Source of the DNA: Blautia hansenii
Lineage (GTDB): Bacteria; Bacillota; Clostridia; Lachnospirales; Lachnospiraceae
Direction: 5' to 3'
DNA length: 64,000 nt
Assembly: GCF_013304445.1 (NCBI RefSeq)
Contig: NZ_JAAITA010000002.1
Coordinates: forward strand, 124,001 to 188,000
In this document: positions 29,408 through 61,692 of the stretch, piece by piece
Position numbering within the stretch: the stretch's first letter is position 1
Layout: each line of letters starts with the position of its first letter
Made by a program: the position numbers and the translations under genes
Notes under the pieces: model-generated
Database searches by the model: none
Told to the model about the DNA's origin: nothing
The model's input: the letters and a program-made list of their open reading frames with translations, nothing else

Positions 29408-30226
29408 ATGCTGGACACCGCCGCGATTCTCATGTCACATGGAGAAAAAGTTGCTTATGGATATGCCGAAGGTGTGAATGACAATATGTGTCAATCCCAC
29501 TTTCATGAATTTTTTGAATTGTATTATTTAGAATCCGGGGAACGGCACCACATGATAGAGGGCGAGCTGTATCATCTGACCGCTCACGAATTTATCATCT
29601 TCCCTCCCAATGTGATGCACCATTCCTACGGGGACAAAAACGTGCCTTTTAAACGTATTGTCCTGTATTTCACACCGGATATGATAGTCTACCCCGAAGT
29701 CCGCAGCTACCTGCTGGAAACCGCCAGAGTATTCTCTTTAAAGAAAATTAAGAAATCTATGATTCATCTCCTCCTGTCCATGCTTCATACTGAGCTGGAC
29801 AAAGAGGAGGGACTTTTCCAGAAAGAATATCTGGAAAATCTGTTAAATCAGCTTCTGCTGACCATTCTCCGGGCCGATTACACCCCTGTGGAAAGCACAC
29901 CCAGAACAAGACCTGCACAGGCGGTCAATTACATTCACGAGCATTATGCCGAAGAAATTTCTGTCTCTGCCCTGGCTGACATGCTCTATGTCAGCCCCTA
30001 CCACCTGTGCAGGGAATTTAAGAAAGTCACCGGAAAAACCATCATTCAATACCTCAACATGACACGGGTGCTTCACGCCCAGCGTATGCTTTTGGAAACG
30101 GATTACAACATTACCCGTATCAGCAAAGAAACAGGTTTTTCCAATCTGACCCATTTTAACCGGATTTTCAAAAGTATTACCGGCGTTTCACCCAGTGAAA
30201 AACGAAAGCAGTACCAATCCGTTTAA
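29408..30226 (+). CDS. AraC-family regulator with N-terminal cupin domain
   Basis: 272 residues from MLDTAAILMSHG; AGGAG sits six bases before this ATG. The N-terminal sugar-sensing cupin reads SHFHEFFELYYLESGERHHMIEGELYHL (about 30-60) and there are two C-terminal helix-turn-helix units (VSALADMLYVSPYHLCREFKK and ITRISKETGFSNLTHFNRIFKS). Divergent from the GH31-B/TRAP operon. I infer it activates that operon, and probably the GH31-C operon, through the paired AGCAA element. Its TAA overlaps the TAA of the convergent Bce permease gene. Confidence 0.88.
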   Translation: MLDTAAILMSHGEKVAYGYAEGVNDNMCQSHFHEFFELYYLESGERHHMIEGELYHLTAHEFIIFPPNVMHHSYGDKNVPFKRIVLYFTPDMIVYPEVRSYLLETARVFSLKKIKKSMIHLLLSMLHTELDKEEGLFQKEYLENLLNQLLLTILRADYTPVESTPRTRPAQAVNYIHEHYAEEISVSALADMLYVSPYHLCREFKKVTGKTIIQYLNMTRVLHAQRMLLETDYNITRISKETGFSNLTHFNRIFKSITGVSPSEKRKQYQSV

Positions 30227-32241
30227 TCACGGCTGCTGACAATACCATAATAAGACTTTGAAGTTATCACATACATGAGAATATAGAAAAGTGAAAACAA
30301 AAGATAACAGCCCGCCATAACGCCTATCAGCAATCCGGTGTTTGTCACTCCTAAAAGCAGCAGAATCTTCCGCATCATAGGAAAAGCAAAGGCCGTATGC
30401 ACTCCTGCTGCCAGAAGCGGCAGGAAAAATACGGTGAGTACCTGGGAATTGATGCTTTTTCGGATTTCCCGTTTGGTCATGCCCACCTTCTGCATAATTT
30501 CAAAACGTTTCCGGTCTTCATAGCCTTCTGTTACCTGCTTGTAGTACATAATCAGTACCATACCCAGAATAAAGACACAGCCCAATAAAATTCCCAGAAC
30601 AAACATACCACTGTACATGGCGTAAAAATCTGCCCGCTCTGACGCGCTGTCCTCTATGTCTATTCTTTCATAACCTTGCTGCAGAAGTCCGTCTCTTTTT
30701 TCCCTTAAACTGTTTGCTACGGCAATTTTTTCCTCATCACTTCCCTGCAAATCAAATCCGTAATAATCGTGCATTTTCACCAGGGATTCTCCCTGCAGCT
30801 CTTTCCATTTGCTGCACACCTGACTTACAGTATCCATATCCTTTACAAAAATAAAAACAGAAGGCATAATCTGCATGGAATCCACGCCGTTATCCACAAA
30901 TTCACTGAGTTTTTTCTTCACCTTCCACTTTGTGCCATCGTCAAAAGCGATTTCATCATACTTGTAGGATGATTTTGTCTGATAAACCAGGACTTCATCC
31001 TCCTGCAGCGTTTCATCTGCCCCCATAATACGATTGTAATCTTCCAAAGGCACTACAAAAAGCTGCCGGATATTTTCCCCTGTAGACATAGCAAATTTTT
31101 CTATTTTTCCCGGGTCCAGACTGATTGTCTTTCCCTCTTCATAACCTGCTGCCACTGTAAAACGATAATGAAGCACATTTTCAGCTTGTTTTTTCTGTTC
31201 CTCTAAGGTCTCTGCCGCCAGACGGTGTACCATATCGATTACTTCCTGATTCTCCGAATACGTATCGATTACAATATTTCTGGGATAACGGGTACGCAGC
31301 TGGTCTTCCGAACCAATAAACATACAGGAGACTGCTGACACCATAACCAGCACCATAGTAGAAAGGATACAAATGGATGCCAGACCATAACCGTTTCTCT
31401 TCATGCGGTACATCATAGAGGATATGGAAACAAAATGTCCCGATTTATAATAATAGTTCTTATTTTTCTTCAGCACCTTGCAAAGCAGCACCGAACCTGT
31501 CCGAAAGAGAATATAGGTGCTGACAATTACCATAGCCACCGCCACGAAAAACCAGAATATAGCCGCCATAGGTTCTTCAATGGATACCGCAAGATAGTAA
31601 GCAGCTGCCAGTATCACAACACCCAGAATCCCTTCCAGCCAGTTGGCTTTCGGCGGTTTCTCTCCCACAGCTTCACTTCGGAGCAATTCAATGGGTTTTG
31701 AGAAAAAAATCTGCAGCAGAGATTTTATTAAAATCAGCAGAAAAATGCTGCCAAAGACTTTCAGAGTCCACAGCAATGCTTCTGTGCTTATCGTGAACGC
31801 ATAACCTGCTTTCCCCTCCAGCATGGAAATCATGACAAGTTCTGCTGCCTTTGAAAACAAAATCCCCCCTAAAAGACCGCCCAGCAGGGAAATCACCGTC
31901 ACCTGTACACCTTCCCAAACCATAACCTTTGCCAGGTTTTTCTTCCCCATCCCCAGCACATGATACATACCAAACTCCCGCTTTCTCCTTCGCATAAGAA
32001 AGGAATTGGTATAAAACAGAAAAATCAGCGCAAACCCTGCCATAATGAAAACCCCAAAGCCAAGTACCCCCTGCATGGTATTTCCGCCCTGCATTTCCCT
32101 GACTGTGGGACTGCTGGATAAAAATACAATGATGTAAAACATGAGAATCATGCCCACAGAAGCCAGAATATAGGGAAGATAAATCTTTTTATTGTTCTTT
32201 ATCCCTGTCCAGGCAATTCTGAAATAAAATCCTCTTTTCAC
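30223..32241 (-). CDS. BceB-type ABC permease (antimicrobial peptide resistance)
   Basis: 672 residues with ten predicted membrane segments, an FtsX block near 60-170, a large extracellular domain of about 200 residues between segments seven and eight, and a C-terminal FtsX block. This is the BceB/VraG layout of permeases that detach peptide antibiotics (bacitracin, lantibiotics) from lipid II-cycle targets and signal to a BceS-type kinase. Overlaps the ATPase gene by four bases. Confidence 0.88.
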   Translation of the reverse strand: MKRGFYFRIAWTGIKNNKKIYLPYILASVGMILMFYIIVFLSSSPTVREMQGGNTMQGVLGFGVFIMAGFALIFLFYTNSFLMRRRKREFGMYHVLGMGKKNLAKVMVWEGVQVTVISLLGGLLGGILFSKAAELVMISMLEGKAGYAFTISTEALLWTLKVFGSIFLLILIKSLLQIFFSKPIELLRSEAVGEKPPKANWLEGILGVVILAAAYYLAVSIEEPMAAIFWFFVAVAMVIVSTYILFRTGSVLLCKVLKKNKNYYYKSGHFVSISSMMYRMKRNGYGLASICILSTMVLVMVSAVSCMFIGSEDQLRTRYPRNIVIDTYSENQEVIDMVHRLAAETLEEQKKQAENVLHYRFTVAAGYEEGKTISLDPGKIEKFAMSTGENIRQLFVVPLEDYNRIMGADETLQEDEVLVYQTKSSYKYDEIAFDDGTKWKVKKKLSEFVDNGVDSMQIMPSVFIFVKDMDTVSQVCSKWKELQGESLVKMHDYYGFDLQGSDEEKIAVANSLREKRDGLLQQGYERIDIEDSASERADFYAMYSGMFVLGILLGCVFILGMVLIMYYKQVTEGYEDRKRFEIMQKVGMTKREIRKSINSQVLTVFFLPLLAAGVHTAFAFPMMRKILLLLGVTNTGLLIGVMAGCYLLFSLFYILMYVITSKSYYGIVSSRD

Positions 32242-33002
32242 TGCGCCTCACCTCCTGATGCCAGCATGGTCAGGGTGCTGGAAATCTTCTCGTACATCTG
32301 CTGATTGGTATCGTTTCCTCGGTAAAGCTGATGGAACACCTCTCCATCCTTAATAAACAGCACCCTCTGGGCATGACTTGCAGCTTTAACCGAATGGGTT
32401 ACCATTAAAATCGTCTGCCCCTCCTGGTTTACCGTTCCAAAAAGCCGTAAAAGTTCGTCTGTTGCCTTGGAATCCAGAGCCCCGGTTGGTTCATCTGCCA
32501 GAATCAGCCTCGGACTGGTAATCAGCGCTCTGGCTACAGCGGCTCTCTGCTTCTGTCCCCCCGAAATCTCGTAAGGGTATTTGTCTAATATTTCTTTAAT
32601 TCCCAGCTTTGCGGCCAAAGGTTCTAAAAGCACCTCCATTTGTCTGTAATGCTTTCCTCCCAGCACCAGCGGCAGATAAATATTATCCCGGATTGAAAAG
32701 GTGTCCAGAAGATTAAATTCCTGAAATACAAAGCCCAGATGATTTCTTCGGAACACAGACAAATCTGCTTCTTTTATTCTGGAAATATCCCTTCCGTCCA
32801 GAAGCACAGTTCCGCCTGTGGGTCTGTCCAGCGCTGCCAGAATATTTAAAAGCGTGGTTTTTCCGGATCCGGACTCTCCCATAATGGCTGTATATTCTCC
32901 CTCTTCTATGGTGAAATTCACATTTTTCAATGCCTGTACCTGATTGCCTCCGAATCTGGTGGTATAGGTTTTTTTCAGATTTTTCACTTCCAAAATTACC
33001 AT
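32238..33002 (-). CDS. BceA-type ABC ATPase
   Basis: 254 residues with Walker [11 protein letters not shown]-loop FVFQEFNLLDTF, signature ISGGQKQR, Walker B LILADEPTGALD and switch His VTHS. AAGGAGG precedes the ATG. It pairs with the overlapping BceB-like gene. Confidence 0.9.
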   Translation of the reverse strand: MVILEVKNLKKTYTTRFGGNQVQALKNVNFTIEEGEYTAIMGESGSGKTTLLNILAALDRPTGGTVLLDGRDISRIKEADLSVFRRNHLGFVFQEFNLLDTFSIRDNIYLPLVLGGKHYRQMEVLLEPLAAKLGIKEILDKYPYEISGGQKQRAAVARALITSPRLILADEPTGALDSKATDELLRLFGTVNQEGQTILMVTHSVKAASHAQRVLFIKDGEVFHQLYRGNDTNQQMYEKISSTLTMLASGGEAQ

Positions 33003-33057
33003 ATTTATTTTGTCCTCCTTGCTTTTGTCCTCTCTTTTACCGTCTTATTGTAGCAAA

Positions 33058-33100
33058 ACAGGGAAATGTCCTGCCATAGCTTTGGCTTACATTTCCCTGT
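33058..33100 (-). promoter_or_regulatory. 12-base inverted repeat between bceS-like and bceA-like genes
   Basis: ACAGGGAAATGT (33058-33069) and ACATTTCCCTGT (33089-33100) are perfect complements. On the minus strand the repeat follows the kinase stop, ends in CTGTTTTGC and is directly followed by TACAAT, a possible -10 for bceA. It can act as terminator, as operator for the response regulator, or both. Confidence 0.6.
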
Positions 33101-33130
33101 GTTCTTCTTACATTTTTGTAAGACGCTCTG

Positions 33131-34123
33131 TCATTCGATTTCCAAATGGGCCTTTCTCACATCCAGATACACCCGGGTTCCCGCTCCTACTGCGGAGGAT
33201 ACCCAAATTCTGTGCCCCAGGCGGTTACAAATACGGCTGCAAAGATACAGCCCGATTCCACTGGCTTTTTTCTGACATCTGCCGTTGTATCCGGTATATC
33301 CCTTTTCAAAAATCCTGGGCAAATCCTCTGGTGCAATACCAATTCCCGTATCCCCGATACAGAGAATCCCCGGCTCTGCCTCCTCAATCCATATCCGACC
33401 CCCGGATTTTGTATACTTCAGCGCATTGGACAAAACCTGCTCAATAACAAACAACAGCCACTTTTCATCTGTCAGTACCCTGCTCTTTACAGGCTGATAT
33501 TCCAGACGGATTTTCCCATTGATGAAAGAAGACGAAAATCTGTGCAGCGCCTGTCTGACAATTCCGTCCATCCCATATTCCTGAAACATATAATCCGTAT
33601 CCTCGCTTTCCAGTCTGAGATAACACAATACCATGTCTACATACTGCTCAATCCTCATTAAATCTCCTTTTATGGCTCTGGAAAGGGCAGTATCCTCATT
33701 TTCCAGATTCAGGTACATAGAAGCAATGGGCGTCTTTATCTGGTGTACCCAGAGGGTATAATATTCCATCATATCCCTGTATTTTCTGCTATGCTCTTCT
33801 TCCATGCTTCTGTATCGTCTGTTCCATTCTTCCATCAGTTCCTGATAGTCCCTCTCCAGAATTCCCTCAGACTCTGGCAGATTGTTTACGGAAAACTCCT
33901 GCTGCCTGTAAAGACTCTGCAATTCTCTGCGTTTTTTCCGAAATGCGAGAAAGTGGGGAAATACAAGCAGCACCCCCAGCGCGCCGCAGACTGCTGCACT
34001 GTAAAGCGCCGCCTCCACAGGTATCTGATACAGAAAGAAGAACAGAATAAAAATGCCGGAACAAATACCGTAAAAGAACAGCACTCTCCCATGATGTTTC
34101 AAATAGCTTCCCAACTCTCTCAT
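33131..34123 (-). CDS. BceS-type intramembrane-sensing histidine kinase
   Basis: 330 residues. Two N-terminal membrane segments (about 14-32 and 36-60) have almost no loop between them, the layout of intramembrane-sensing kinases that need the BceAB transporter as sensor. Phospho-acceptor His127 in LWVHQIKTPIAS. HATPase motifs: NALKYT, GDTGIGIAPED, and GIGLYL. Overlaps the regulator gene by four bases. Confidence 0.9.
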   Translation of the reverse strand: MRELGSYLKHHGRVLFFYGICSGIFILFFFLYQIPVEAALYSAAVCGALGVLLVFPHFLAFRKKRRELQSLYRQQEFSVNNLPESEGILERDYQELMEEWNRRYRSMEEEHSRKYRDMMEYYTLWVHQIKTPIASMYLNLENEDTALSRAIKGDLMRIEQYVDMVLCYLRLESEDTDYMFQEYGMDGIVRQALHRFSSSFINGKIRLEYQPVKSRVLTDEKWLLFVIEQVLSNALKYTKSGGRIWIEEAEPGILCIGDTGIGIAPEDLPRIFEKGYTGYNGRCQKKASGIGLYLCSRICNRLGHRIWVSSAVGAGTRVYLDVRKAHLEIE

Positions 34124-34809
34124 GATGTGGTCACCGCCGATTCTATCAAATATCCCATGCCTACTTTTGTTGTAATAAATCCCGTCAGTCCCTCTTTTTC
34201 CAGTTTTTTACGCAGGCGGTTCACATTGACGCTCAGGGTATTTTCATCTACAAAACTGTCATTTTCCCACAATTTTTCCATCAGCCTTTCCCTGCTGACG
34301 ATTTTCCCCTTCTGCTCCATAAGCGTGAGAAGAATCCGGTATTCATTTTTCGTCAAATCAATTTTTCTTCCTTCGTAATGCAAAAGGGCGTCTTCCTTGG
34401 ATAAAAGCGCCCCTCTGTGCTCCAGAACAGATACCTGGGTTCCGTAATCATAAGTTCTTCTCAGAACCGCCTGTATCTTTGCCATGAGTACGGAAAAATC
34501 AAAGGGCTTTGCAATAAAATCATCCGCTCCGGCCTGCAGCGCCATAACAATATTCAGGTTATCGGAAGCCGAGGAAATAAAAATCACCGGCACTTTAGAC
34601 ACCTCCCTGATTTTCTGACACCAGTAATAGCCATTGAAAAAAGGCAGTGAAATATCCATCAGCACCAACTGAGGCCTCCAGGCGGCAAATTCCGCCATGA
34701 TGTCATGAAAATCCTCGGTGCACCTTGCCTCCATTCCCCAGCTTTCCGTCTGTTTTTGTATGGCACCGGCGATACCGCTATCATCTTCTACTATAAAAAT
34801 GCGATACAT
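34120..34809 (-). CDS. BceR-type response regulator (OmpR family)
   Basis: 229 residues. Receiver domain with the acidic pair in EDD (8-10), phospho-acceptor Asp52 and Lys101; C-terminal winged helix with NEYRILLTLMEQKGKIVSRERLMEKLW and VNRLRKKLE. First gene of the two-component pair, upstream of the BceAB-like genes it is expected to activate. Promoter at 34866-34894. Confidence 0.9.
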   Translation of the reverse strand: MYRIFIVEDDSGIAGAIQKQTESWGMEARCTEDFHDIMAEFAAWRPQLVLMDISLPFFNGYYWCQKIREVSKVPVIFISSASDNLNIVMALQAGADDFIAKPFDFSVLMAKIQAVLRRTYDYGTQVSVLEHRGALLSKEDALLHYEGRKIDLTKNEYRILLTLMEQKGKIVSRERLMEKLWENDSFVDENTLSVNVNRLRKKLEKEGLTGFITTKVGMGYLIESAVTTS

Positions 34810-34906: not shown

Positions 34907-35665
34907 TTACAGCACCGATTCCACTAACAGCTTCGTATACGCTTCTTTTGGCTGCATAATCACTTCATCCGGAGTGCCCTCTTCCACGATTTTTCCGTCC
35001 TTCATGACCAGCACACGGTCACAAAACATCTGCACCAAAGCCAGATTATGGCATATAAACAGGTAAGAAAGATTCCTCTCTTCCTTTAATTTTTTCAAAA
35101 GTTCCAGGATTTGCTGCTGTACAGTCACGTCCAGCGAACTGGTTGCCTCATCACAAATCACGATCTTGGGCTGTACGGCCAGAGCTCTGGCAATGGCTGC
35201 TCTCTGACATTGACCGCCGCTGACTTCGTGGGGATATCGTCCATAAAATTCCTCTGAAAGTCCGCACTGGGAAAGCAGGCGTAAAACCTCTTTTTTAGCC
35301 TCTGCTTTAGAAGTTCCACTGTTTCGCAGACTTTCTCCGATTCCGTCCCCTAAGGTTCTTCTTGGGTCAAAAGAAGTAACGGGAGTCTGAAATACCATCT
35401 GGAGTTTCTTATAACACTGGCGCAGAGCCTTTCCTTTTATTCTCGTAATATCCTGTCCGTCCAGAAAGATACTGCCCTCCGTCACATCTGTCAGGCGGGA
35501 CACAGCCCTTACCAGCGTGCTTTTGCCGCTTCCCGACTCCCCTACAATCCCCAGGATTTCTCCCGGATACAGCTGAAAATTTACATGGTCAACAGCTGTA
35601 AAATCAGACTTTCCCTCTGCGGCAAATATTTTAGTCAATTCTTTTGTTTCTAAAACCGGTTTCAT
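34907..35665 (-). CDS. Nickel/peptide ABC importer ATPase (NikE/OppF-like)
   Basis: 252 residues with Walker A GESGSGKST, signature VSGGQCQR, Walker B IVICDEATSSLD and switch His ICHN. No long C-terminal extension. The ribosome site GGAGGG overlaps the end of the preceding ATPase gene, one base before. Last gene of the operon led by the hydrolase-methyltransferase fusion. Confidence 0.88.
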   Translation of the reverse strand: MKPVLETKELTKIFAAEGKSDFTAVDHVNFQLYPGEILGIVGESGSGKSTLVRAVSRLTDVTEGSIFLDGQDITRIKGKALRQCYKKLQMVFQTPVTSFDPRRTLGDGIGESLRNSGTSKAEAKKEVLRLLSQCGLSEEFYGRYPHEVSGGQCQRAAIARALAVQPKIVICDEATSSLDVTVQQQILELLKKLKEERNLSYLFICHNLALVQMFCDRVLVMKDGKIVEEGTPDEVIMQPKEAYTKLLVESVL

Positions 35666-36448
35666 CTATGCCCTCCGCAATTTTGGTACTGCTGCCAGCA
35701 GTCTCTGTGTGTATTCCTTTTCCGGATACTGCAGAATCTGCCGGGCAGATCCATATTCTGCCACCTGTCCATCTTTTAAAACCAGTATGGTATCTGCCAG
35801 CGCAGACACCACCCCGATATCATGGGTTACCAGTATCACGGCTGTGCCAAAAAGTTCTCTCAGCCGCAGTATTTCCTGTACCACCTGCCGCTGAACAGCC
35901 ACATCCAGGGCGCTGGTTGGCTCATCTGCCAAAAGTACCGGCGGCTGCATAAGCATAGCAAGAACAATACCAACTCTCTGGTTCATTCCTCCCGACAGTT
36001 CAAAAGGATAGCTGTTCCAAATCCTCTCGCCGTCTTTAAAATAGAGCTTTTCAAATAAATCCAATGCCTTCCCTTTGGCCTCTGCCCTGGTGATTTTTTT
36101 ATGTGCGGAAATACTCTCATAAATCTGCTCTCCAATGGTCCGGATAGGACACAGAGAGGCGCCTGCATCCTGAAAAATCATGCCGATTTTTTCACCTCGA
36201 ATCTGCCGCAGTTCTTTTTCAGGCAAATCCGGAATATCCTTTTCCTGAAACCAGATATCACCCCTGGTTACCATTCCGTCGTTTCCCAGAAGTCCCATTG
36301 CCGCTTTTAAAAGAGTACTCTTCCCACTGCCGGATTCACCTACAATACCCAGAATTTCTCCCTCATGAAGGGTAAAACTGGTATCTCGTATCACAGCCGT
36401 GCCGTTGAAACAGATTTCTACAGACTGATAGGTCAATATTTCTTTCAT
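35666..36448 (-). CDS. Nickel/peptide ABC importer ATPase (NikD/OppD-like)
   Basis: 260 residues from MKEILTYQSVEICFNG; AAGGAGAAGG precedes this ATG, which is preferred over 36481. Walker A GESGSGKST, signature LSGGMNQR, Walker B VLLADEPTSALD, switch His VTHD. It lacks the Cys-rich C-terminal block of DppD, as do NikD-type subunits. Confidence 0.88.
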   Translation of the reverse strand: MKEILTYQSVEICFNGTAVIRDTSFTLHEGEILGIVGESGSGKSTLLKAAMGLLGNDGMVTRGDIWFQEKDIPDLPEKELRQIRGEKIGMIFQDAGASLCPIRTIGEQIYESISAHKKITRAEAKGKALDLFEKLYFKDGERIWNSYPFELSGGMNQRVGIVLAMLMQPPVLLADEPTSALDVAVQRQVVQEILRLRELFGTAVILVTHDIGVVSALADTILVLKDGQVAEYGSARQILQYPEKEYTQRLLAAVPKLRRA

Positions 36449-36477
36449 ACGCCCTTCTCCTTCCAATAGAAATCGTC

Positions 36478-38058
36478 TCATGATGCAGGTGCCAAATCTA
36501 CCGTAATTTCATAAAAATCACAGGGGTGCGCAGTCAGTCCGGTAACACTGGCCTTGCTAATCATGCTCATCTTCAGATGCGAGCAGAATACAAAGGCATT
36601 ATCATCCAAAATCGTCTGCTGCATTTCCACTGCCAACTCACTTCTGCGTTCTGTATCAAAAGTTTTTGCCATTTCCTTTTCTAACTGCTCCAGTTTATCA
36701 CTGTGGTAATGTCCGTTGTTTACCGCCGAACTGTCCAGACAGTGTGTGGTAAAGAAATATTCCGGATCTCCGGTAGGCGCCGTTACCATGGCGCTGGCAT
36801 ACACATCCCAGGCAGAAGCATTCGTCCGTATGCTGTTATGGTCTGCAGTACTGTTAATCTTCACATCCATACCGATTTCTTTCAAAGTAGCCTGTGCAGA
36901 TTCTGCGAGCAGAGGAAGCTCCTGACGGCTTGGGTACGTCAGCCAGCGGATTTCTAACTCCTGTCCGTCCTTTTCACGAATGCCGTCTCCGTCAGAGTCT
37001 ATCCAGCCAGCCTCTTCCAGGACTTTTTTTGCCCCCTCTGTATCATATGTTTCTGCTGTAACTGCATCTCCTCCAAACGTAAAGTTATCCGGATACGCTC
37101 CCACAGCAGGGTAGCCATTTCCATCCAGCAAAGTATCTACAAATCCCTCTTTGTCAATCCCCATGGCAATGGCTTTCCGCACAGCCGAATCCTGAATCAC
37201 CGGACTTTCAAAGTTCATATGAACAAAAAAAGCACGGCTGGTCGCACAGCTTGAGAACGTATACTCCTCGTTTTCAAACAGAGGATAGCTGGCATACGGC
37301 ATACCGTAAGCAGCGTCAATCTCACCGGACTGCAGCGCCATGGTCAGGGTGTCCCCGTCTGAAATAGTGCGTACGGTAATTTCATCATATCCCGGCTCGC
37401 CGTCCCAGTAGTCTTCATTTTTTACCAGTTTCAGTTCTTCCCCTGACACCAGAGATTCTGCTTTGTATGGGCCTGTGCCTGCCACAATACCGTCTTCTGT
37501 CACTCCTGCGGATACGTCTACAATACAGCCATAGGGGTCGCTGAGGTAATTTAATAAGGTAGGTTTGGGTTCTGTTGTTTTTATGGTAACTGTTTGCCCC
37601 TCTGCTGTAATGGTATCAATCATTAAGTCCCCTTTTGCACGCTCATGTACTTTTACCAAATCTTCCAGACATTCTTTTACTGCTTCACCGTCCATGGCTC
37701 TGCCGCTGGTAAACTTCACATTGTCCTGCAGAGTGATTTTCCAGGTCAGTTCATCTATATTTTCATAACTCTTTGCCAGCCAGGGCTGGATTTCCATGGT
37801 ATCGGAATACTTAAAAAGAGTTTCACCGATACCATACCGGATACAGGCCCAGCCGGAATAGGTATTATGAGGATTTACATCAGGTTCTTCGTTTTCAGGG
37901 TTAAACGTAGTATCTCCGAATACAAAAGTCTTTTTTCCCGTATCTTTTGCTTTTTCGTCATCTGCTTTTTTCTCTCCCCCGGAGGCACAGCCTGGCAGAA
38001 GTCCTGCTCCCAGACAGACGGCCATCAATAGTGCCGATATTTTTTTCATTTTTCCCAT
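36478..38058 (-). CDS. Solute-binding lipoprotein of nickel/peptide ABC importer (NikA-like)
   Basis: 526 residues with lipobox LPGC (Cys24) and a short charged linker. SBP family 5: VNPHNTYSGWACIRYGIGETLFKYSD, VKFTSGRAMDGEAVKECLEDL, and SDGDGIREKDG. The start DVNPHNTYSGW and overall layout resemble NikA/CntA proteins more than OppA. Those bind nickel-ligand complexes, so a metal-chelate ligand is possible. Confidence 0.85.
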   Translation of the reverse strand: MGKMKKISALLMAVCLGAGLLPGCASGGEKKADDEKAKDTGKKTFVFGDTTFNPENEEPDVNPHNTYSGWACIRYGIGETLFKYSDTMEIQPWLAKSYENIDELTWKITLQDNVKFTSGRAMDGEAVKECLEDLVKVHERAKGDLMIDTITAEGQTVTIKTTEPKPTLLNYLSDPYGCIVDVSAGVTEDGIVAGTGPYKAESLVSGEELKLVKNEDYWDGEPGYDEITVRTISDGDTLTMALQSGEIDAAYGMPYASYPLFENEEYTFSSCATSRAFFVHMNFESPVIQDSAVRKAIAMGIDKEGFVDTLLDGNGYPAVGAYPDNFTFGGDAVTAETYDTEGAKKVLEEAGWIDSDGDGIREKDGQELEIRWLTYPSRQELPLLAESAQATLKEIGMDVKINSTADHNSIRTNASAWDVYASAMVTAPTGDPEYFFTTHCLDSSAVNNGHYHSDKLEQLEKEMAKTFDTERRSELAVEMQQTILDDNAFVFCSHLKMSMISKASVTGLTAHPCDFYEITVDLAPAS

Positions 38059-38088: not shown

Positions 38089-38955
38089 TTATTTTCTGCG
38101 GCTGTTGCGGGGATCTAAATAATCCCTCACTGTATCGCCTAAAAGATTAAAAATAACGACCACGATAAAAATCGCAATTCCCGGCCCCAGAATGACCCAC
38201 GGATACGTCTGCAGCATGCTTCTTCCGCCGCTCATCATATTTCCCAGTTCCGCGGTAGGCGGCTGTGCTCCAAGTCCCAGAAAAGACAGTCCTGCCAGCT
38301 CCATCAGCATAGTTCCAATATCCAGCATAGCGGTAACCAAAATCGGTCCTGCACAGTTGGGAAGAATATGTTTTACTATAATCTGCCGGGAACTGCTTCC
38401 TGCCAGTTTTGCAGCAGCAATATAATTTGTACTTTTCTGTGCCAAAGTCTGACTTCTGGCAATTCTGGCATATTTAGGCCAGCTGATCACCGCCAAGGCC
38501 AGTACCGCATTATGCAATCCCCCATTTAACAGGGCTGCGATTGCTAAGGCAAAGACCAGCCCCGGAAACGCCAGACATACATCTGAAATCCGCATTACCA
38601 CAGAGTCCAGAACCCCCTCATAATACCCGCACAAAACCCCCAGTACGGTTCCCACCAGGGTAATTATAACCACCAGAGAAAGGGTAGCCAGCACACTGGT
38701 CTGAAGACCTACCAAAATACGTGAAAACATATCCCGTCCGAAGCGGTCTGTTCCTGCCGGATGTGCCGCGCTGGGAGGCTGAAGCGAAATGCTGGTATCC
38801 TGGGCATTGGGGTCATAAGGGCAAATCTGCTGTGCAAAAACAGCAGTCAGCAGCAATCCTGCGGCAAGAATCAAAAAAACAACCAGCCTGGTTTTTGTAT
38901 GATTCTTTCTGATTTTCTGCTTCCGCAAAGACGGCATTTTTTTCTCTTGACTCAT
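38089..38955 (-). CDS. Nickel/peptide ABC importer permease (NikC-like)
   Basis: 288 residues with the hallmark HPAGTDRFGRDMFSRILVGLQTS, six membrane segments and the coupling loop AAKLAGSSSRQIIVKHILPN. Overlaps the NikB-like gene by four bases at its start. Confidence 0.88.
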   Translation of the reverse strand: MSQEKKMPSLRKQKIRKNHTKTRLVVFLILAAGLLLTAVFAQQICPYDPNAQDTSISLQPPSAAHPAGTDRFGRDMFSRILVGLQTSVLATLSLVVIITLVGTVLGVLCGYYEGVLDSVVMRISDVCLAFPGLVFALAIAALLNGGLHNAVLALAVISWPKYARIARSQTLAQKSTNYIAAAKLAGSSSRQIIVKHILPNCAGPILVTAMLDIGTMLMELAGLSFLGLGAQPPTAELGNMMSGGRSMLQTYPWVILGPGIAIFIVVVIFNLLGDTVRDYLDPRNSRRK

Positions 38956-39896
38956 GCCTTTTCACCCCCTAAACGAATTCTTGGGTCCAGAACACGGTAA
39001 GAAAGATCCGTTATGAGATTCACACAGACATAAATAATTGCCATCCACATAACATAGGCCTGAATCATGGGGTAATCTCTCATATTAATGGCGTCTACTG
39101 CCAGTTTTCCTACTCCATCCCACAAAAAGATAGATTCTACAATGGCCGTGCCGCCTAACAAACTTCCAATAGAGAGGGTAAGCAGCGTAATAATGGTCAC
39201 CAGACAGGCTTTTAGCACACTTTTGTAGAGTGTCACAGAAAAACGGACCCCCCTGGCCTTTGCACCAACCACATAATCCTTACTCAGCTCATCCAAAACT
39301 GTGGCCCGTACCTGCCGGAGATACTTTGCAGACATGGCAATGGCAAGGGTGAGGCTGGGAAGCGCCACGCTTTCCATACTGACTTCCGAAGCAATAACCG
39401 GAAATATCTTTACACGAATAGCAAAAAAATACATCAGGAGCAGCGCTACAAAAAAATTAGGCATACTGTTTCCCAAAAAACTGGCAGCCCGGATAAGATA
39501 GTCTGTAAACCGGTTCTGTTTCACAGCAGCCAGAACCCCCAAAGGAATGGAAATGATAATGGTAAGGGCAATGGAAACCACTGTAAGCAGCAAAGTTGCC
39601 GGAAGTTTAGAGATAAAGGCAGGAAAAACTGCTTTCCCGGATATATAACTGGTTCCCATGTCTCCGTGAAGCAGATTTCCCAGCCATACAAAATACTGTG
39701 TCAGAAAGGGCTTATCCAGCCCCAGTTCCGCCCGCGCTTTGTCCATGACCTCCTGAGAAACTATCATTCCCGTATTTTCCATTTTCTGCAATACTGCGTC
39801 GCTTCCTGCCAGACGCATCATGCCAAAAGAGAGAAAGGTAATCACCAGCAGAATGGGAATCAACTGCAGCAGGCGCTTAAGGATATATTTTTTCAT
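38952..39896 (-). CDS. Nickel/peptide ABC importer permease (NikB-like)
   Basis: 314 residues starting MKKYILKRLLQLIPILL with GGAG upstream. It begins one base after the stop of the fusion gene, so the two are tightly cotranscribed. DppB/NikB layout with ELGLDKPFLTQYFVWLGNLLHGDMG and the coupling loop KDYVVGAKARGVRFSVTLYKSVLK. Confidence 0.88.
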   Translation of the reverse strand: MKKYILKRLLQLIPILLVITFLSFGMMRLAGSDAVLQKMENTGMIVSQEVMDKARAELGLDKPFLTQYFVWLGNLLHGDMGTSYISGKAVFPAFISKLPATLLLTVVSIALTIIISIPLGVLAAVKQNRFTDYLIRAASFLGNSMPNFFVALLLMYFFAIRVKIFPVIASEVSMESVALPSLTLAIAMSAKYLRQVRATVLDELSKDYVVGAKARGVRFSVTLYKSVLKACLVTIITLLTLSIGSLLGGTAIVESIFLWDGVGKLAVDAINMRDYPMIQAYVMWMAIIYVCVNLITDLSYRVLDPRIRLGGEKA

Positions 39897-39897
39897 T

Positions 39898-41592
39898 TCA
39901 TTCTCCTTTTCTGGCACTAATGACAAAAAGCGGGTCCGGATTATAAAATTCATCCTTTTCCATATAAATTCTTTTGCTGACACTAAAATCTAAAAACAGT
40001 TCTACAGTTCCCAGATTTCCAAGGACTCCCACATCCCAGGCAGGCCGCTGATAAGAACTGATAGGAAGCTGTCTCTTAATTTCTTCACATTCCTGCAAAA
40101 GCTCCTCTCCCAGCTTATTGTGTGCGTGATTTTGGGGCAAATGAGACGTATCTGCACAATCGCTTGCCCCGTAGTTGGCGTCAAAATTCAGCAGACAACC
40201 TCCCTTTTTCAGCACCCGCAGCCATTCCCGGTAGGCTCTGTTGGCATCCGGCAGCGTCCAGGTCAGATTTCTGGAAATAACCACATCAAAAGTTTCATCC
40301 GCAAAGGTGAGATTTTCCGCATCCATAACCTGGAAGATACAGTCTGCTCCCTCTTCCTCTGCCAGTTCTTTTGACCTCTCTATCATATCCGGAGTCAAAT
40401 CCACCCCAAGCACTTCATGCCCCTGCTGTGCCAGTAAAATGGTAAAGAAGCCTGAGCCGCAGCCCACATCCAGAATTTTCAGTTTTTTCTTGGGCAGGTA
40501 TTTCCCGATTTCCTTTAACCACCGGTCCGCCAGACTGCTGTGCAGTTCCGCACGTCTCTGTTCCTGAAAACTGGTACTGCGCTTTGTCCAGTATCCTGCA
40601 ATTTTTTTCTTCCGGTTATCCGCCTCTCTGGAAATCTTTCCATAGGCAATCATAGGGCCGCTCTCTTTTACCTGCAGACTGCCTGTCTGATACAAGACCA
40701 CACCGTCATATTCCGCCCTGCACACTTCCAGCACAGTTCCCTCATAATCCTTGACCACGCCCAGGACTTCTCCCTGCCGTATCATATCCCCCGGACTTTT
40801 ATAAGGATACCAGATACCATTTTGGTTTGCCGCCTGATAGCTGACGTCTGTCACCTCCAGGGGATAATAATTTCTGTAATCCTTTTGTCCCAGATACACG
40901 CCCAGATGACACAAGATATTTCTCACATCCCGTCTGGTAGAATGCGCTTCTTCCTCTGTCCATGCTCCCATCTGTCCCCGTTCAATCAAAACCGACGGAA
41001 TCCCAAGCTGCGCCGCATAATTATAGCAGCCGCCGCCTGCCACACAGGAACGCACCATATAGGGCACATCTGCCTGCTGCGCCATCTCTCTGGCTGCCTC
41101 TACCACCCGGGGCTCTGCTACACCTGCGTAATATATATAAGGTGTCAGCTGCTCATAGCTGTCACCGCTGTGCAAATCAATATAAAAATCCACTCCCGGA
41201 AACAGTTCCTTTTCAATGGCATAGGCCAGCCGTTCCATTTGGCTGCCCGTTTCTTTTCCGGGAAATACCCTGTTTAAATTCACCCCATCTTCAAACCCTT
41301 CGCTGCCGCTGCGCATTTCAAACGCCTGGCGGTTTACCACCTTTACAATGACAACCGTACCGGCAATCTTTTCCGGATGTAAATGCTCTGCCAGCTCCAT
41401 AGCTGACTGAATTCCCACATATTCCGCTGCATGAACACCGGCTGTAATCAACACGGTTTTCCCCTGTTTTTCTCCGTTCAAAATAGTCACAGGCAGTTCA
41501 AATTCTCCGTTTCCCACGAAAAGATAACCGCTTTTTTTCTCTCCCGGTTCTGCCTGAAAATTTCCCAGGCAAAATACTTTGTTTTTTTCCAT
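39898..41592 (-). CDS. Fusion of AstE/AspA-type zinc hydrolase and SAM-dependent methyltransferase
   Basis: 564 residues from MEKNKVFCLGN; AAGGACAG precedes this ATG. Residues 1 to about 320 are an AstE/AspA (succinylglutamate desuccinylase/aspartoacylase) domain: zinc ligands His54 and Glu57 in GVHAAEYVG and His141 in DLHSGD, NLNR at 106-109, catalytic Glu204 in VLIERGQMG. Residues about 345-560 are a class I methyltransferase with ILDVGCGSGFF (about 373-383), VLGVDLTPDM and FDVVISRNLTW. Both domains keep their key residues. The gene leads a NikBCADE-type importer operon. A role in processing the imported ligand, such as deacylating or methylating a chelator, is inference. Confidence 0.85.
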   Translation of the reverse strand: MEKNKVFCLGNFQAEPGEKKSGYLFVGNGEFELPVTILNGEKQGKTVLITAGVHAAEYVGIQSAMELAEHLHPEKIAGTVVIVKVVNRQAFEMRSGSEGFEDGVNLNRVFPGKETGSQMERLAYAIEKELFPGVDFYIDLHSGDSYEQLTPYIYYAGVAEPRVVEAAREMAQQADVPYMVRSCVAGGGCYNYAAQLGIPSVLIERGQMGAWTEEEAHSTRRDVRNILCHLGVYLGQKDYRNYYPLEVTDVSYQAANQNGIWYPYKSPGDMIRQGEVLGVVKDYEGTVLEVCRAEYDGVVLYQTGSLQVKESGPMIAYGKISREADNRKKKIAGYWTKRSTSFQEQRRAELHSSLADRWLKEIGKYLPKKKLKILDVGCGSGFFTILLAQQGHEVLGVDLTPDMIERSKELAEEEGADCIFQVMDAENLTFADETFDVVISRNLTWTLPDANRAYREWLRVLKKGGCLLNFDANYGASDCADTSHLPQNHAHNKLGEELLQECEEIKRQLPISSYQRPAWDVGVLGNLGTVELFLDFSVSKRIYMEKDEFYNPDPLFVISARKGE

Positions 41593-41635
41593 TTTAATCT
41601 GTCCTTTATATCCAAATAGGCTGTTTTTTGGAGTC

Positions 41636-41664
41636 ATTTTATCAAATTTCACCTCTGCAAACAA
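41636..41664 (-). promoter_or_regulatory. Promoter of the fusion-importer operon
   Basis: Minus-strand TTGTTT (41664-41659), 17 bases, TAAAAT (41641-41636). A GC-rich inverted repeat (about 41665-41691, GCCCCCTGGGG...CCCCAGGGC) touches the -35 and is followed on the plus strand by A/T runs; it may be an operator or a terminator. Confidence 0.55.
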
Positions 41665-41745
41665 GCCCCCTGGGGGGATTCTCCCCAGGGCAAAAACTTT
41701 TTTTCGGCAGAAATCGGGATTTTTTTGCAAAAACACAGGTTTCCC

Positions 41746-41774
41746 TTGCATACAGACGAATTTCAACGTATTAT
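41746..41774 (+). promoter_or_regulatory. Promoter of the CofE-like gene
   Basis: TTGCAT (41746-41751), 17 bases, TATTAT (41769-41774), 60 bases before the ATG at 41834. Confidence 0.65.
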
Positions 41775-41833
41775 GAAATAGGCAGGATTTTTCTGCCCAT
41801 AATTTTGTGAAAAACCAATGGAGGTATATAAAT

Positions 41834-43042
41834 ATGGAAAAGAAAGAACGCATGGTTGGAACCATTTCAAGAGGTGTCAGAGCCCCGATTATCCGCAAAG
41901 GTGACAATCTTTCCGAAATCGTAGTAGACTGCGTGCTGAAAGCTTCCGAAAGCGAAAACTTTGAAATTTGCGACAAAGATGTCATTGCTGTAACAGAGGC
42001 TGTTGTAGCCAGAGCACAGGGAAACTATGCTGGTGTAAAGGACATTGCTGCAGACGTAAAAGAAAAATTCGGCGATGATACCGTAGGCGTGATTTTCCCC
42101 ATTTTAAGCCGCAACCGCTTCTCTATCTGTTTAAAAGGAATCGCCATGGGCTGCAAAAAAATCGTACTCATGCTCAGCTATCCTTCTGACGAAGTGGGTA
42201 ATCATCTGGTAGACCTGGACCTTTTGGATGAGAAAAATATTAATCCCTGGTCTGATGTGCTCACAGAGGAAACTTACAGAGCATTATTCGGATACGAAAA
42301 ACACGTTTTCACAGGCGTGGACTATGTAGAATATTACAAACAGCTGATTCAGGAAGCCGGTGCAGAAGTGGAAATCATTTTTGCAAATAATCCAAAGGCT
42401 ATCCTCTCTTATACTAAAAGCGTACTGGCCTGCGATATCCACACACGCCAGAGAACAAAACGAATCTTAAAAGCCAACGGTGCAGAGAAAGTTTATTCTT
42501 TAGACGACATTATGACAAAGAGCATAAACGGCAGCGGCTACAATGACGCCTACGGTCTTCTGGGTTCCAACAAAGCCACAGAAGATACGGTAAAACTCTT
42601 CCCGATTAAATGTGAAGAAGTAGTCTCTGCTATTCACAAATCCATGCTGGAAAAAACAGGCAAAAACGTGGAAGTGATGGTTTACGGTGACGGCGCGTTT
42701 AAAGACCCGGTTGGAAAAATCTGGGAACTTGCTGACCCGGTAGTTTCTCCGGCTTACACCAATGGACTGGAAGGAACACCAAACGAAGTGAAACTGAAAT
42801 ATCTGGCTGACAACGATTTTGCTCAATTATCCGGCGTAGAATTAAAAGATGCCATTAAGAATTATATTACAGAAAAAGATGAGAAAGCTGCCAGCTTAAA
42901 GGGTACCATGGTGACACAGGGAACCACTCCGAGACGTCTGACCGACCTTTTGGGTTCTCTTGCAGACCTGACCTCCGGCTCCGGAGATAAGGGAACTCCG
43001 ATTATTTACATTCAGGGGTATTTTGACAATTACGCGAAATAA
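41834..43042 (+). CDS. CofE-like protein (coenzyme F420-0:L-glutamate ligase family)
   Basis: 402 residues from MEKKERMVGTISRG; GGAGGT lies eight bases upstream, so this ATG is preferred over 41807. The N-terminal half follows the F420_ligase pattern (VRAPIIRKGDNLSEIV, DKDVIAVTEAVVARAQGNY). CofE joins glutamate to F420-0 using GTP. These bacteria are not known to make F420, so the real acceptor is probably something else. Divergent from the hydrolase-methyltransferase/importer operon, sharing a 240-base promoter region. Single-gene unit ending at the terminator 43053-43093. Confidence 0.78.
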   Translation: MEKKERMVGTISRGVRAPIIRKGDNLSEIVVDCVLKASESENFEICDKDVIAVTEAVVARAQGNYAGVKDIAADVKEKFGDDTVGVIFPILSRNRFSICLKGIAMGCKKIVLMLSYPSDEVGNHLVDLDLLDEKNINPWSDVLTEETYRALFGYEKHVFTGVDYVEYYKQLIQEAGAEVEIIFANNPKAILSYTKSVLACDIHTRQRTKRILKANGAEKVYSLDDIMTKSINGSGYNDAYGLLGSNKATEDTVKLFPIKCEEVVSAIHKSMLEKTGKNVEVMVYGDGAFKDPVGKIWELADPVVSPAYTNGLEGTPNEVKLKYLADNDFAQLSGVELKDAIKNYITEKDEKAASLKGTMVTQGTTPRRLTDLLGSLADLTSGSGDKGTPIIYIQGYFDNYAK

Positions 43043-45320: not shown

Positions 45321-47822
45321 TTACATTCCAATCATATCGAATTGTTCAAAAGACACGACTACTTTGTAATCCTTCTTTGGATTTTTATATTTAATCTGAA
45401 CTGATTTCAGACTCTGGCTGTAGTACCATCCAAACTCTGCCTCTTCAAATTTTCTCCTATGCAGGAAATGCGGTACTTCCTGTCCGTCCACCTGCACCCA
45501 GTAAGGCGCTTTTTCCCGGTGAATCATATCAATGTACATATCTTCCACCGCAGTTTCGTAGGAACCTTCATGAACAAACGACAGCGCTGTCTGCTCGCCG
45601 GCCTGCATAGTAATCCGGGTTTTCAGGTATGCCCCTTTTGTATATTCCATTGTAGCGCCGTCATCTTCATACAGAGTAAAGGCTCCGTCCCGGCCTGCTT
45701 CACATATCATCCGGATTGCAGTTACTTTCTGCTGCATAAGGTTGTTCAATTGATGCGCTGCCATAGGAATAATAGCTCCGCTTCTGATAAACAGCGGAAT
45801 GCTTCCCAGTTCTACCGGAAGTTCTACTGTCTGTCCGCCCTGATATTGGGTTCTGTTATAGAAATCATAGAAGATTTCACCTTCCGGAAGATATACTTTT
45901 CTGGTCTTTGCACCTTTTTCCACCACATTTGCTACCAACAGAGAGTCTCCGAACATAAAGTCCACACCCTCATCGTAACACTTGCTGTCATGCTGGAAAG
46001 CACTGCACATGGGCTCCATAATAGGAAGTCCAGTTTCATGGGCACGTTCCATGAGAGAATACAGATACGGAATCATCTGATACCGAAATTCAATGGCTTG
46101 GCGGATTTCCTCTTTGCAGCCACTGTACATCCACGGTTCTGTCACCGTATTGTCAATATTTGTAGAATGAATGGAAAATCTTGGCTGGAAAATTCCATTC
46201 TGAATCCACCTTACCAGCAGTTCCGCCTCTGGCGCTGGTCCGTAAAATCCTCCGATATCACATCCCTGGTTTGCCACACCGGACAGACTCATGCCCAGAA
46301 TGGTGGCAATATTGTATTTTAACGAATCCCAGCAAGTCAGATTGTCTCCGGCCCAGGTCTGTGCATATTTCTGAATCCCACTGTGTCCGGAACGGCAGAC
46401 AATGTAAGGTCTCTGGTTTCCAAACGTTTCCTGAATGGCCTCATCTGTCACATGACACATAATATTGGACATCACTGCTTTAAGCTGTCCAATCGTTCCG
46501 CCTTTTCCTTCAAAGGAACAGCGGCAATCCTTGTCTACCATACTGTCGTACTCACAGTTATCATTCCATACAGAATTGGTACCATAGTCCAGAACATTTT
46601 CTTTCAGAAGCTCTTTCCACTCTTCTCTGGTAGAAGCCTTAGTGAAATCCACAAACATTCCCTTTCCGCCCCACCAGGTTCCGATTCCCGGCTCATCCGT
46701 TTCACTGTCTTTGACAAACATGCCCTTTTCTTTCATCTCTTCCAGCATTGGATGTACCAGAAGAATTCCCGGCTTCACATTGGGAGAAACACAGATTCCT
46801 CGCTCCTTCATCTGGCTGAAAAACTCTTTTGGCTCTTTAAACCGTTTCTTATTCCAGGTAAATACGCAGCGTTTGATCCCCTCCTGTGTTTCAATGGCAC
46901 AGTATCCGGAAGATAACTGAAATCCGTCTGCAGGAATTCCCTCTTCTCTGGTTGTATCAATAAATTCCAAAATAGCGTCATCGCAGTCTGCTTCCAGTTC
47001 GGGATAATACATAGAAGATCCCAGATATCCCAGAGCATAGACAGGAAGCATAGCAGATTTCCCGGTCAGGTCTGTATAACGCTCTACCACGTCCCGGACA
47101 GCCGGACCTGCAATCAGAAACAAATCAATATCCCCTCCGTCTGTACGGTAACGGCTGTGGCGCTTCCAGTAATTGCTCTTTTCTTTTCCCATATCAAAAT
47201 CACATTCATACGTATTGTGGTAAAAATAACCCACGGCCTTCTGATGTTTCCGATTCAGTTTAATGTAAAACGGAATGTGTTTATAAAGAGAATCTGTTTC
47301 CTTTGGGTCATATCCCATTGCATCCTTGGGGCTCATTCCCATGAACTTCTGAGCCTTGTTGAACACTCCGCTCTTTTCTCCGAATCCGTAAAAACAGTCA
47401 TCCTCAGAAATTTCGCTGGTATGAATTCTCCGGTGATTGCTGTCTTCCATATAAGCAAGGTCTACAATATCGGCATGCAGCAACGTGTTATCCCTATCGT
47501 ATACGCAGATACGGAATGGATTTTTCTCCACCTCTACACGCAGCAGTTTTCCCTGCAGGATTGCTTTTTCTTCACCATCTGTTAATTCTGCTTTTGCCGG
47601 CTGTACCCGTGTCCGGTATTTCTTCATGAACACATCCATCCGGTCTTCCCAGGCTGTCATTACAAGACTGTAAGATTCCTCTGCAAACTCCCCATCAAAG
47701 CCTGCGCGGATTCTTAAAATAGAATCTGTCAAAAACAGAATACGGATTTCTACACTGTTCGTAGAAACAGAAAAATAATCTCCAATCTGTTTCACCTCTC
47801 CTGCCTGTAAACATAGTTTCAT
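45321..47822 (-). CDS. Glycoside hydrolase family 31 (GH31-C)
   Basis: 833 residues from MKLCLQAGEVKQ; AGGAGG six bases upstream selects this ATG over 47837, and it makes the protein exactly as long as GH31-B. Nucleophile Asp in NSVWNDNCEYDS, acid/base in WAGDNLTCW. Most of the barrel is identical or nearly so to GH31-B, so they are recent paralogues. It leads an operon with a GPH symporter and an esterase. Its promoter element matches that of GH31-B. Confidence 0.9.
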   Translation of the reverse strand: MKLCLQAGEVKQIGDYFSVSTNSVEIRILFLTDSILRIRAGFDGEFAEESYSLVMTAWEDRMDVFMKKYRTRVQPAKAELTDGEEKAILQGKLLRVEVEKNPFRICVYDRDNTLLHADIVDLAYMEDSNHRRIHTSEISEDDCFYGFGEKSGVFNKAQKFMGMSPKDAMGYDPKETDSLYKHIPFYIKLNRKHQKAVGYFYHNTYECDFDMGKEKSNYWKRHSRYRTDGGDIDLFLIAGPAVRDVVERYTDLTGKSAMLPVYALGYLGSSMYYPELEADCDDAILEFIDTTREEGIPADGFQLSSGYCAIETQEGIKRCVFTWNKKRFKEPKEFFSQMKERGICVSPNVKPGILLVHPMLEEMKEKGMFVKDSETDEPGIGTWWGGKGMFVDFTKASTREEWKELLKENVLDYGTNSVWNDNCEYDSMVDKDCRCSFEGKGGTIGQLKAVMSNIMCHVTDEAIQETFGNQRPYIVCRSGHSGIQKYAQTWAGDNLTCWDSLKYNIATILGMSLSGVANQGCDIGGFYGPAPEAELLVRWIQNGIFQPRFSIHSTNIDNTVTEPWMYSGCKEEIRQAIEFRYQMIPYLYSLMERAHETGLPIMEPMCSAFQHDSKCYDEGVDFMFGDSLLVANVVEKGAKTRKVYLPEGEIFYDFYNRTQYQGGQTVELPVELGSIPLFIRSGAIIPMAAHQLNNLMQQKVTAIRMICEAGRDGAFTLYEDDGATMEYTKGAYLKTRITMQAGEQTALSFVHEGSYETAVEDMYIDMIHREKAPYWVQVDGQEVPHFLHRRKFEEAEFGWYYSQSLKSVQIKYKNPKKDYKVVVSFEQFDMIGM

Positions 47823-47862
47823 GATGTTCCTCCTCATGTCTTCTTACACAATTTGCGCTTTT

Positions 47863-56657: not shown

Positions 56658-56735
56658 CAGAGACTGCCCCATGAAGTGCATACCAAGAATCTTTATCCAT
56701 TCCTGCTTGCAATTTCATGGGGCAGCCTCGTTTTA
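56658..56735. terminator. Bidirectional hairpin terminator
   Basis: CTGCCCCATGAA (56664-56675) pairs with TTCATGGGGCAG (56714-56725) between convergent operons; T/A runs on both sides. Confidence 0.8.
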
Positions 56736-57446
56736 CTGGGGCAGTCCCTCCAACAACAGCTTCGTGTAGGAAGATTTCGGATGAGCAAATAAGTCTTCCG
56801 TATCCTGCTGTTCTTCTATTTTTCCGTCCTTCATGACCATCACCCGGTCACACATCTGATAAATCACGTTCAAATCATGGGATATAAACAGAATGGACAG
56901 CCCCATTTCCTCCTGCAGATGCACCATAAGTTCCATAATCTGCTTCTGTATTGTCACATCAAGAGCAGATACCGGCTCGTCTGCAATGATAAATTTTGCT
57001 CCCTGTATCAGCGCGGCAGCAATACTCACCCGCTGCCTCTGTCCTCCGCTTAACTCCCGTGGATAGCGCCTAAGCTGCTCTGTTGTAAGCCCTACCTTTT
57101 CTCCCATGGCAAGCACCTTCTGCTTCCGCCGTTCCTTTGGTATTTTCTGCATACGAAGAGGCTCTTCTAAAATCCATTCCACCCTTTTACTGGGATTCAG
57201 AGAAGAAAAAGGGTCCTGAAAAATCATCTGGGGACGTTCTGTATGATGTACAATCTCTCCCTCGTCTGTCTTTACAAATCCCAAAATTGCCTTAGACAGT
57301 GTGGATTTCCCACATCCGCTCTCTCCTACCAGTCCCAGAATTTCGTTTTCCCGTACTTCAAAGCTGATGTCCTTTAACACTTCTTTCCGGCTTTTTCCTT
57401 CCTTATAAGAAACAGACACCTGTTTGACTTCCAGTACCTTTTTCAT
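56733..57446 (-). CDS. Peptide/nickel ABC importer ATPase (OppF/NikE-like)
   Basis: 237 residues with Walker [10 protein letters not shown], signature LSGGQRQR, Walker [13 protein letters not shown] and switch His ISHD. Overlaps the preceding ATPase gene by four bases. Last gene of the third importer operon. Confidence 0.88.
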
Positions 57447-58264: not shown

Positions 58265-58265
58265 A

Positions 58266-59072: not shown

Positions 59073-59083
59073 CTTTCCACCCC

Positions 59084-60028: not shown

Positions 60029-60066
60029 ATTCTGTCTTTCTCCTTTTCTCCTGTTCTTTCTAATTC

Positions 60067-61641: not shown

Positions 61642-61692
61642 GACTATCTCCTTTTTACATATCAGTTCTCTCATTATGTAATTGTCAAGGTT

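Follow-up and report, generated by a model that had tools for sequence, protein, structure and literature searches.

We analysed a 64,000-nucleotide stretch of the Blautia hansenii genome (RefSeq assembly GCF_013304445.1, contig NZ_JAAITA010000002.1, positions 124,001 to 188,000; hereafter the window), in which a gene at 39898..41592 on the minus strand encodes an AstE/AspA-type hydrolase (HYD) fused to a class I S-adenosylmethionine (SAM) methyltransferase (MT1) and leads a NikBCADE-type importer. Results showed that the larger unit is a methyltransferase family (MT), comprising MT1 and a related second methyltransferase (MT2), that is linked to importers of the nickel type in several of the phylum's families. 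In the Blautia group and related bacteria, a hydrolase has been added to this unit and fused with it. The sequences are best read as pointing to a role connected with a chelator. A function somewhere in nickel-chelator metabolism is probable, and there is about an even chance that MT2, the hydrolase and MT1 modify an amino-acid-like chelator with which nickel enters by way of the neighbouring NikBCADE importer. That a set of three enzymes is so tightly tied to a nickel importer, and has been fused more than once, suggests that nickel acquisition includes a chemical step as yet unnamed.

The fusion is a single stop-free frame of 564 residues by open reading frame (ORF) translation, with the hydrolase at residues 1-325 and MT1 at about 330-564. 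In Pfam, PF24827 AstE_AspA_cat matched residues 43-229 (97.5 bits, cut-off 25) and PF08241 Methyltransf_11 matched residues 374-467 (93.7 bits, cut-off 21.2). The hydrolase half carries H54, E57, H141, E204 and R108, the last within an LNR motif, and SAM motif I of MT1 reads DVGCGSG from residue 375. Across 32 aligned hydrolase domains, H54, E57 and H141 were present in 32/32, E204 in 31/32 and R108 in 30/32. We take the H-x2-E ... H residues to be the metal ligands and catalytic Glu of the AstE/AspA domain, and the arginine of the LNR motif presumably binds a carboxylate. By family, the protein is an AstE/AspA catalytic-domain member joined to a class I SAM methyltransferase member, with methyl transfer as its predicted activity. 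The nearest characterised relative of the hydrolase is DoeB (N-acetyl-2,4-diaminobutyrate deacetylase), which shares with it the family, the aligned His/Glu/His and the LNR motif. Unlike DoeB, the window hydrolase is linked to methyltransferases and a nickel importer, and the fusion stays far below the DoeB equivalog cut-off (TIGR02994, NCBIfam, 105.6 bits vs 402.7). Its nearest solved structures are N-acetyl-diaminobutyrate deacetylases (6twl, 6twm) and AstE/AspA proteins with family-level names only. The fusion is no chance or assembly artefact, because it occurs at full length in 12 other genomes with 54-73% identity. A scan of named genomes yielded three loci, of which the closest, L073 (Candidatus Blautia stercoravium), matched at 96% over the fusion.

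Downstream of the fusion, on the same minus strand, NikB, NikC, NikA, NikD and NikE follow in this order, and NikB starts one base past the fusion stop. The NikB-type permease (38952..39896, 314 aa; NF045470 Opp2B, 351.3 bits, cut-off 350) and the NikC-type permease (38089..38955, 288 aa; NF045474 Opp2C, 307.4 bits, cut-off 300) cleared the nickel permease cut-offs of NCBIfam by narrow margins. Nickel models also matched the other three proteins, each under its cut-off. The NikA-type binding lipoprotein (36478..38058, 526 aa) had Opp5A_nikA (NF045468) as its best match. The NikD-type ATPase (35666..36481, 271 aa) matched PF00005 and, below their cut-offs, NikD/CntD/CntF-type models, and the NikE-type ATPase (34907..35665, 252 aa) matched PF00005 and, likewise below, OppF/NikE-type models. 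The best PDB matches of NikA, 3t66 and SaNikA 4ofj, are SaNikA-like proteins that bind nickel. In a set of 20 close NikA sequences we found invariant arginines, including R275 and R378, which align with SaNikA arginines, and no invariant His, a pattern to be expected if a carboxylate chelate is bound whole. In gene content and family scores the set resembles NikABCDE-type nickel importers (Opp2/Opp5A, SaNikA). Known NikABCDE systems use free histidine-type ligands, and to our knowledge none has a fused hydrolase-methyltransferase. An earlier note on this DNA had described one polypeptide with both domains and intact active-site residues, ending one base before a complete NikB-C-A-D-E-type importer, and both descriptions were borne out by translation, Pfam and the residue check, with all five importer genes in order.

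We then surveyed 299 genomes of the window's family, scoring four candidates per genome in the fusion/hydrolase search, seven for NikB and nine for MT, so that the counts are lower bounds. At 1e-20, the fusion search gave matches in at least 53/299 genomes and a full-length fusion in at least 13, the window included. A NikB match lay within 12 kb of the fusion in 10 of these 13, and the retention of the importer on which the earlier reading had counted thus held in most of them. MT2 was found beside or inside the fusion ORF in 9/13 and formed a single MT2-HYD-MT1 ORF in 4/13 (L054, L058, L059 and L061). Two more genomes had a single MT2-MT1 ORF (L071 and L033), and G169 had a 503-aa open frame with two MT matches, as judged from match coordinates alone. 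In other genomes the enzymes are encoded by separate genes. In a midpoint-rooted FastTree phylogeny of 96 methyltransferase domains, two neighbouring clades held most domains (43 of MT1 type and 32 of MT2 type), and 21 more divergent domains, assigned to MT1 or MT2 by best match only, fell outside both. The hydrolase-fused MT1 domains formed one group of 14 (support 0.79), and the MT2-MT1 pair was its sister (group of 16, support 0.99). This grouping fits a single origin of the fusion.

The association between methyltransferase and importer was strong at the level of whole genomes. With MT2 and the window's NikB as queries, the family survey gave 83 MT matches in 44/299 genomes and NikB at ≥268 bits in 45/299. 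Both were present in 40 genomes, MT only in 4, NikB only in 5 and neither in 250 (odds ratio 500, Fisher p 1.8e-39). Proximity was counted with NikB matches down to 210 bits (among the matches listed), the 83 MT matches and 38 hydrolase matches, with the hydrolase half of every fusion trimmed by hand. Results showed that 60/83 MT matches lay within 12 kb of NikB, vs about 1.2 expected. An MT lay within this distance for 18/25 NikB matches at ≥400 bits, 5/7 at 320-400, 16/36 at 268-320 and 2/33 at about 210-268 bits, and the link is thus tightest for the nickel-type NikB clade and weakens with distance from it. In the phylum survey, MT at 1e-35 was found in 23/299 genomes, 21 of them outside the window's family. 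We examined 20 stretches from 18 of these 21 genomes: MT stood with NikB/NikC in 12 and with weaker Nik/Opp-type genes in 2 more, and a FecCD-type system was the sole importer in 2. In acetogenic gut bacteria, nickel is used by CO dehydrogenase and by further nickel enzymes. CO dehydrogenase (E <= 1e-60) was present in 29/44 MT genomes vs 35/255 others, and in 12/13 fusion genomes; in total it was found in 64 genomes at this threshold, of which 61 exceeded the family cut-off, and the window's own genome has three copies. This co-occurrence lends indirect support to nickel transport by the importer.

The hydrolase is a looser partner, since 22 of its 38 matches were near NikB and 19 were within 6 kb of an MT. 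Among 17 separate hydrolases, three have His-rich C-terminal tails, with CxxC on two of them (L066:8968-10077 and L067:9920-10954) and not on the third (L074:2927-4006), as is seen in metal-handling proteins. As a separate observation, L066 and L074 have a P-type ATPase no more than 4 kb from the hydrolase, and in L085 a related one is 8 kb away.

We propose that the fusion belongs to a physically linked set of as many as three enzymes (MT2, hydrolase, MT1), which would act on a small amino-acid-like nickel chelator. NikBCADE would take up the nickel chelate, and the hydrolase would then cleave an N-acyl or amide bond beside a free carboxylate held by R108; such a substrate is suggested by the LNR motif arginine together with the kinship to AspA and DoeB. 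The SAM enzymes would alkylate the freed amino or carboxylate groups, after which the ligand would release its metal and rebinding would be blocked. Because the enzymes are linked to importers and seldom to exporters, and because some hydrolases have tails of a metal-binding type, we tentatively favour processing of the chelate on the import side; biosynthesis or tailoring of a nickel chelator is a rather unlikely role. With siderophore hydrolases such as Fes, the proposed release step would share the idea of a cytosolic hydrolase that frees metal from an imported chelate. Fes belongs to a family unrelated to the window hydrolase and cleaves a different bond.

Several observations weigh against a dedicated import-side system for nickel chelates. 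NikA of the window, unlike the binding proteins of NikABCDE nickel importers, falls below the nickel equivalog cut-off (Opp5A_nikA, 355 bits vs 600). No importer lay within 12 kb of 23/83 MT matches in the family, and 4 of the 20 outside-family stretches showed none, two of those four ending at a contig edge. Three of the 13 fusions (G102, G093 and G239) lacked a NikB match within 12 kb; G102 does have a further copy of the fusion region, which is broken and adjoins a Nik set (L065). MT2 of the window's own genome lies apart, on a different contig. The hydrolase family is not limited to an importer role, because 16/38 matches were away from NikB, and it is an optional part, because no hydrolase was found at E <= 1e-12 in any of the 21 outside-family genomes with MT. 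Shared descent may explain part of the CO dehydrogenase enrichment. On the regulatory side, the window and 15 related loci gave no riboswitch or structured RNA match except one tRNA, and the dyads of 106 upstream stretches yielded no shared metal-regulator site. Finally, in 7/61 loci a MATE exporter on the same strand directly adjoins the Nik, MT or hydrolase genes, which fits a secreted, self-made metallophore.

The last point leads to an alternative that we consider unlikely, in which MT1, MT2 and the hydrolase would assemble or complete a small nickelophore for export, which NikBCADE then recaptures in the fashion of staphylopine and Cnt. Opine metallophore clusters (cnt: staphylopine, pseudopaline) likewise place SAM enzymes by a Nik/Opp-type or FecCD importer, sometimes with a MATE/EamA exporter, and the present system perhaps works, by analogy, like a metallophore system; unlike those clusters, it has Methyltransf_11-type enzymes that are related to each other, together with a hydrolase of the AstE/AspA type. 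In a published account of opine zincophore clusters (PMC7438024), such clusters can include methyltransferases and acetyltransferases whose role is unclear, MFS, EamA or MatE exporters and Opp-type or FecCD importers. The resemblance is thus close in places, and the association described here bears on the question, left open in section 8 of that source, of what the extra methyltransferases do. In the G384 locus, MT and NikBCADE are accompanied by an EamA exporter and by a nicotianamine synthase (NAS)-family protein of 163 aa (Pfam NAS, 31.1 bits vs cut-off 27.1; closest in the PDB to thermonicotianamine synthase and CntL), and both NAS-family matches among 65 MT genomes adjoin an MT-Nik locus. 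Against recapture, the MATE exporter is no denser at these loci (7 in 1.06 Mb) than at 20 control loci (4 in 0.36 Mb); given this and its presence in 7/61 loci, we rejected it as a general component and kept it as a feature of a subset. The window's operon has no adjoining exporter. The CntL/nicotianamine synthase family (PF03059) was absent from the window's genome and present in 2/65 MT genomes, with one control genome also matching, and one of the two matches is weak and ambiguous, scoring higher as Methyltransf_31. The CntM opine dehydrogenase (PF10100) was found in 0/65 MT genomes, in a search where control genomes were silent too. With CntL/NAS missing in 63/65 and CntM undetected in 65, we did not file the system as an opine metallophore member. 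The short NAS-like family also occurs in 4/50 further genomes, where the stretches inspected (one just 3.5 kb long) contained neither MT nor NikB or NikC, and was likewise discarded as a general component. These stretches (L193, L194, L195, L196 and L197, from four other genomes of the phylum) encode proteins of 163-218 aa, one of which was scanned and gave 30.3 bits to NAS, above the cut-off; the L194 stretch also encodes, two genes away from the NAS-like gene, an ABC ATPase that is 31% like NikD. More speculative still, and in our view quite improbable, MT1 and MT2 could be aminocarboxypropyl transferases, like nicotianamine synthase and CntL, that add arms from SAM to the hydrolase-freed amine and make a new class of nickel-binding metabolites without a CntL/CntM-family enzyme. 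If so, the MT2-hydrolase-MT1 proteins would be one-polypeptide metallophore factories in Blautia-related gut bacteria.

A purely nutritional role deserves somewhat less credence than recapture: the importer would take up an N-acyl amino acid or dipeptide as a nutrient, which the hydrolase deacylates before it is methylated, with no part for a metal. The importer superfamily includes peptide carriers, and the solved deacetylases and AstE/AspA proteins nearest to the hydrolase agree with such chemistry. What speaks against it is that the permeases clear the nickel equivalog cut-offs, if narrowly, that NikB of the nickel type is strongly linked to MT whereas weaker NikB is so in 2/33, that FecCD importers are also paired with MT, and that CO dehydrogenase is enriched in MT genomes. 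The reading of the earlier note also included a third enzyme, a CofE-like ligase, which with the hydrolase and the methyltransferase would form one pathway. Its gene (41834..43042, plus strand, 402 aa) encodes a F420_ligase family protein (PF01996, 188.8 bits vs cut-off 25) and starts 241 bases from the fusion on the opposite strand. The divergent CofE-family gene of that note therefore stood as to family and position, but the CofE equivalog TIGR01916 was missed (41 bits vs 180.65). The same divergent pair occurs in the near-identical L073, and CofE-like and MT genes lie on the same contig, about 20 kb or less apart, in 3 of the 7 genomes that have both (the window, G133 and G229). We do not think that this proximity outweighs the evidence against a partnership. 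Full-length CofE-like matches at 58-86% identity were found in 70/299 family genomes, and their presence was not positively associated with MT (7 genomes shared with the 44 that have MT, odds ratio 0.58, p 0.25). The gene was present in 2/13 fusion genomes and adjacent to the fusion in 1/13, the window itself, plus L073. Among the window and 20 CofE-like loci taken from 69 other genomes, no gene family was common to three or more loci. A single pathway of ligase, hydrolase and methyltransferase is thus extremely improbable, and we treat the gene as a positional neighbour outside the system. The proposed ligation step falls away with it, because the gene is not a conserved partner. Of the chelator system that the earlier note had put forward, the conserved link between hydrolase, methyltransferase and nickel-type importer survives, and the ligase does not. 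The CofE-like gene, whatever its role, is well conserved in 70/299 related genomes, and comparison of 21 loci showed no neighbour that stays with it.

Our searches of an open-access full-text library found no title or abstract describing the association of these methyltransferases and the hydrolase with a nickel importer, and no account of nickel unloading in acetogenic gut bacteria. A survey of nickel and cobalt use (PMC2667541) treats NikABCDE and, in the portion available, names no such methyltransferase neighbour.

The divergent intergenic region between the fusion and the CofE-like gene (41593..41833, 241 bases, no strand assigned) had no Rfam match. Two putative elements are seen in it, a 6-base dyad ATTTCA-N8-TGAAAT and a G+C-rich hairpin. 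Low-complexity cases aside, the commonest dyad of the upstream stretches was TATAACAAATTGTTATA, which was rejected as a shared regulator site: it was confined to L039, L049 and L072, and looser matches occurred in 33/106 stretches, equal to shuffles (24-36). The palindrome is exact in L039 and L072 and has a single mismatch in L049, and its distance upstream of NikA is 74-110 bases. These three loci are a NikABCDE-hydrolase subtype without MT, and a LysR-type gene stands directly upstream on the same strand in 3/3.

Other neighbours of the MT, hydrolase and Nik genes recurred in a few loci each. L138, L152 and L154 have GNAT acetyltransferases next to the genes for MT or Nik proteins (domain-scanned in two of the three), and FmdE-type proteins occur in L055 (scanned) and L054 (similar by eye). 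A 4Fe-4S double-cluster protein stands between MT2 and NikA in two genomes of one genus (L141:10210-10911, scanned, and L144:8638-9336). Elsewhere in the window, a second Nik/Opp-type importer set lies at 56733-61674 on the minus strand; its binding protein scored 184 bits to Opp5A_nikA, equal to GsiB. The flanking region also holds two minus-strand genes (26728-29229 and 45321-47837) whose proteins are 83.7% identical over 833 residues; the former protein was assigned to glycoside hydrolase family 31 by domain scan, and a FGGY sugar kinase and a fucose-isomerase-type protein are encoded near the pair. After NikE, on the same minus strand, a response regulator, a histidine kinase, an ABC ATPase and an FtsX-type permease follow at 30223-34809, an arrangement that, as we take it, resembles peptide-antibiotic resistance modules.

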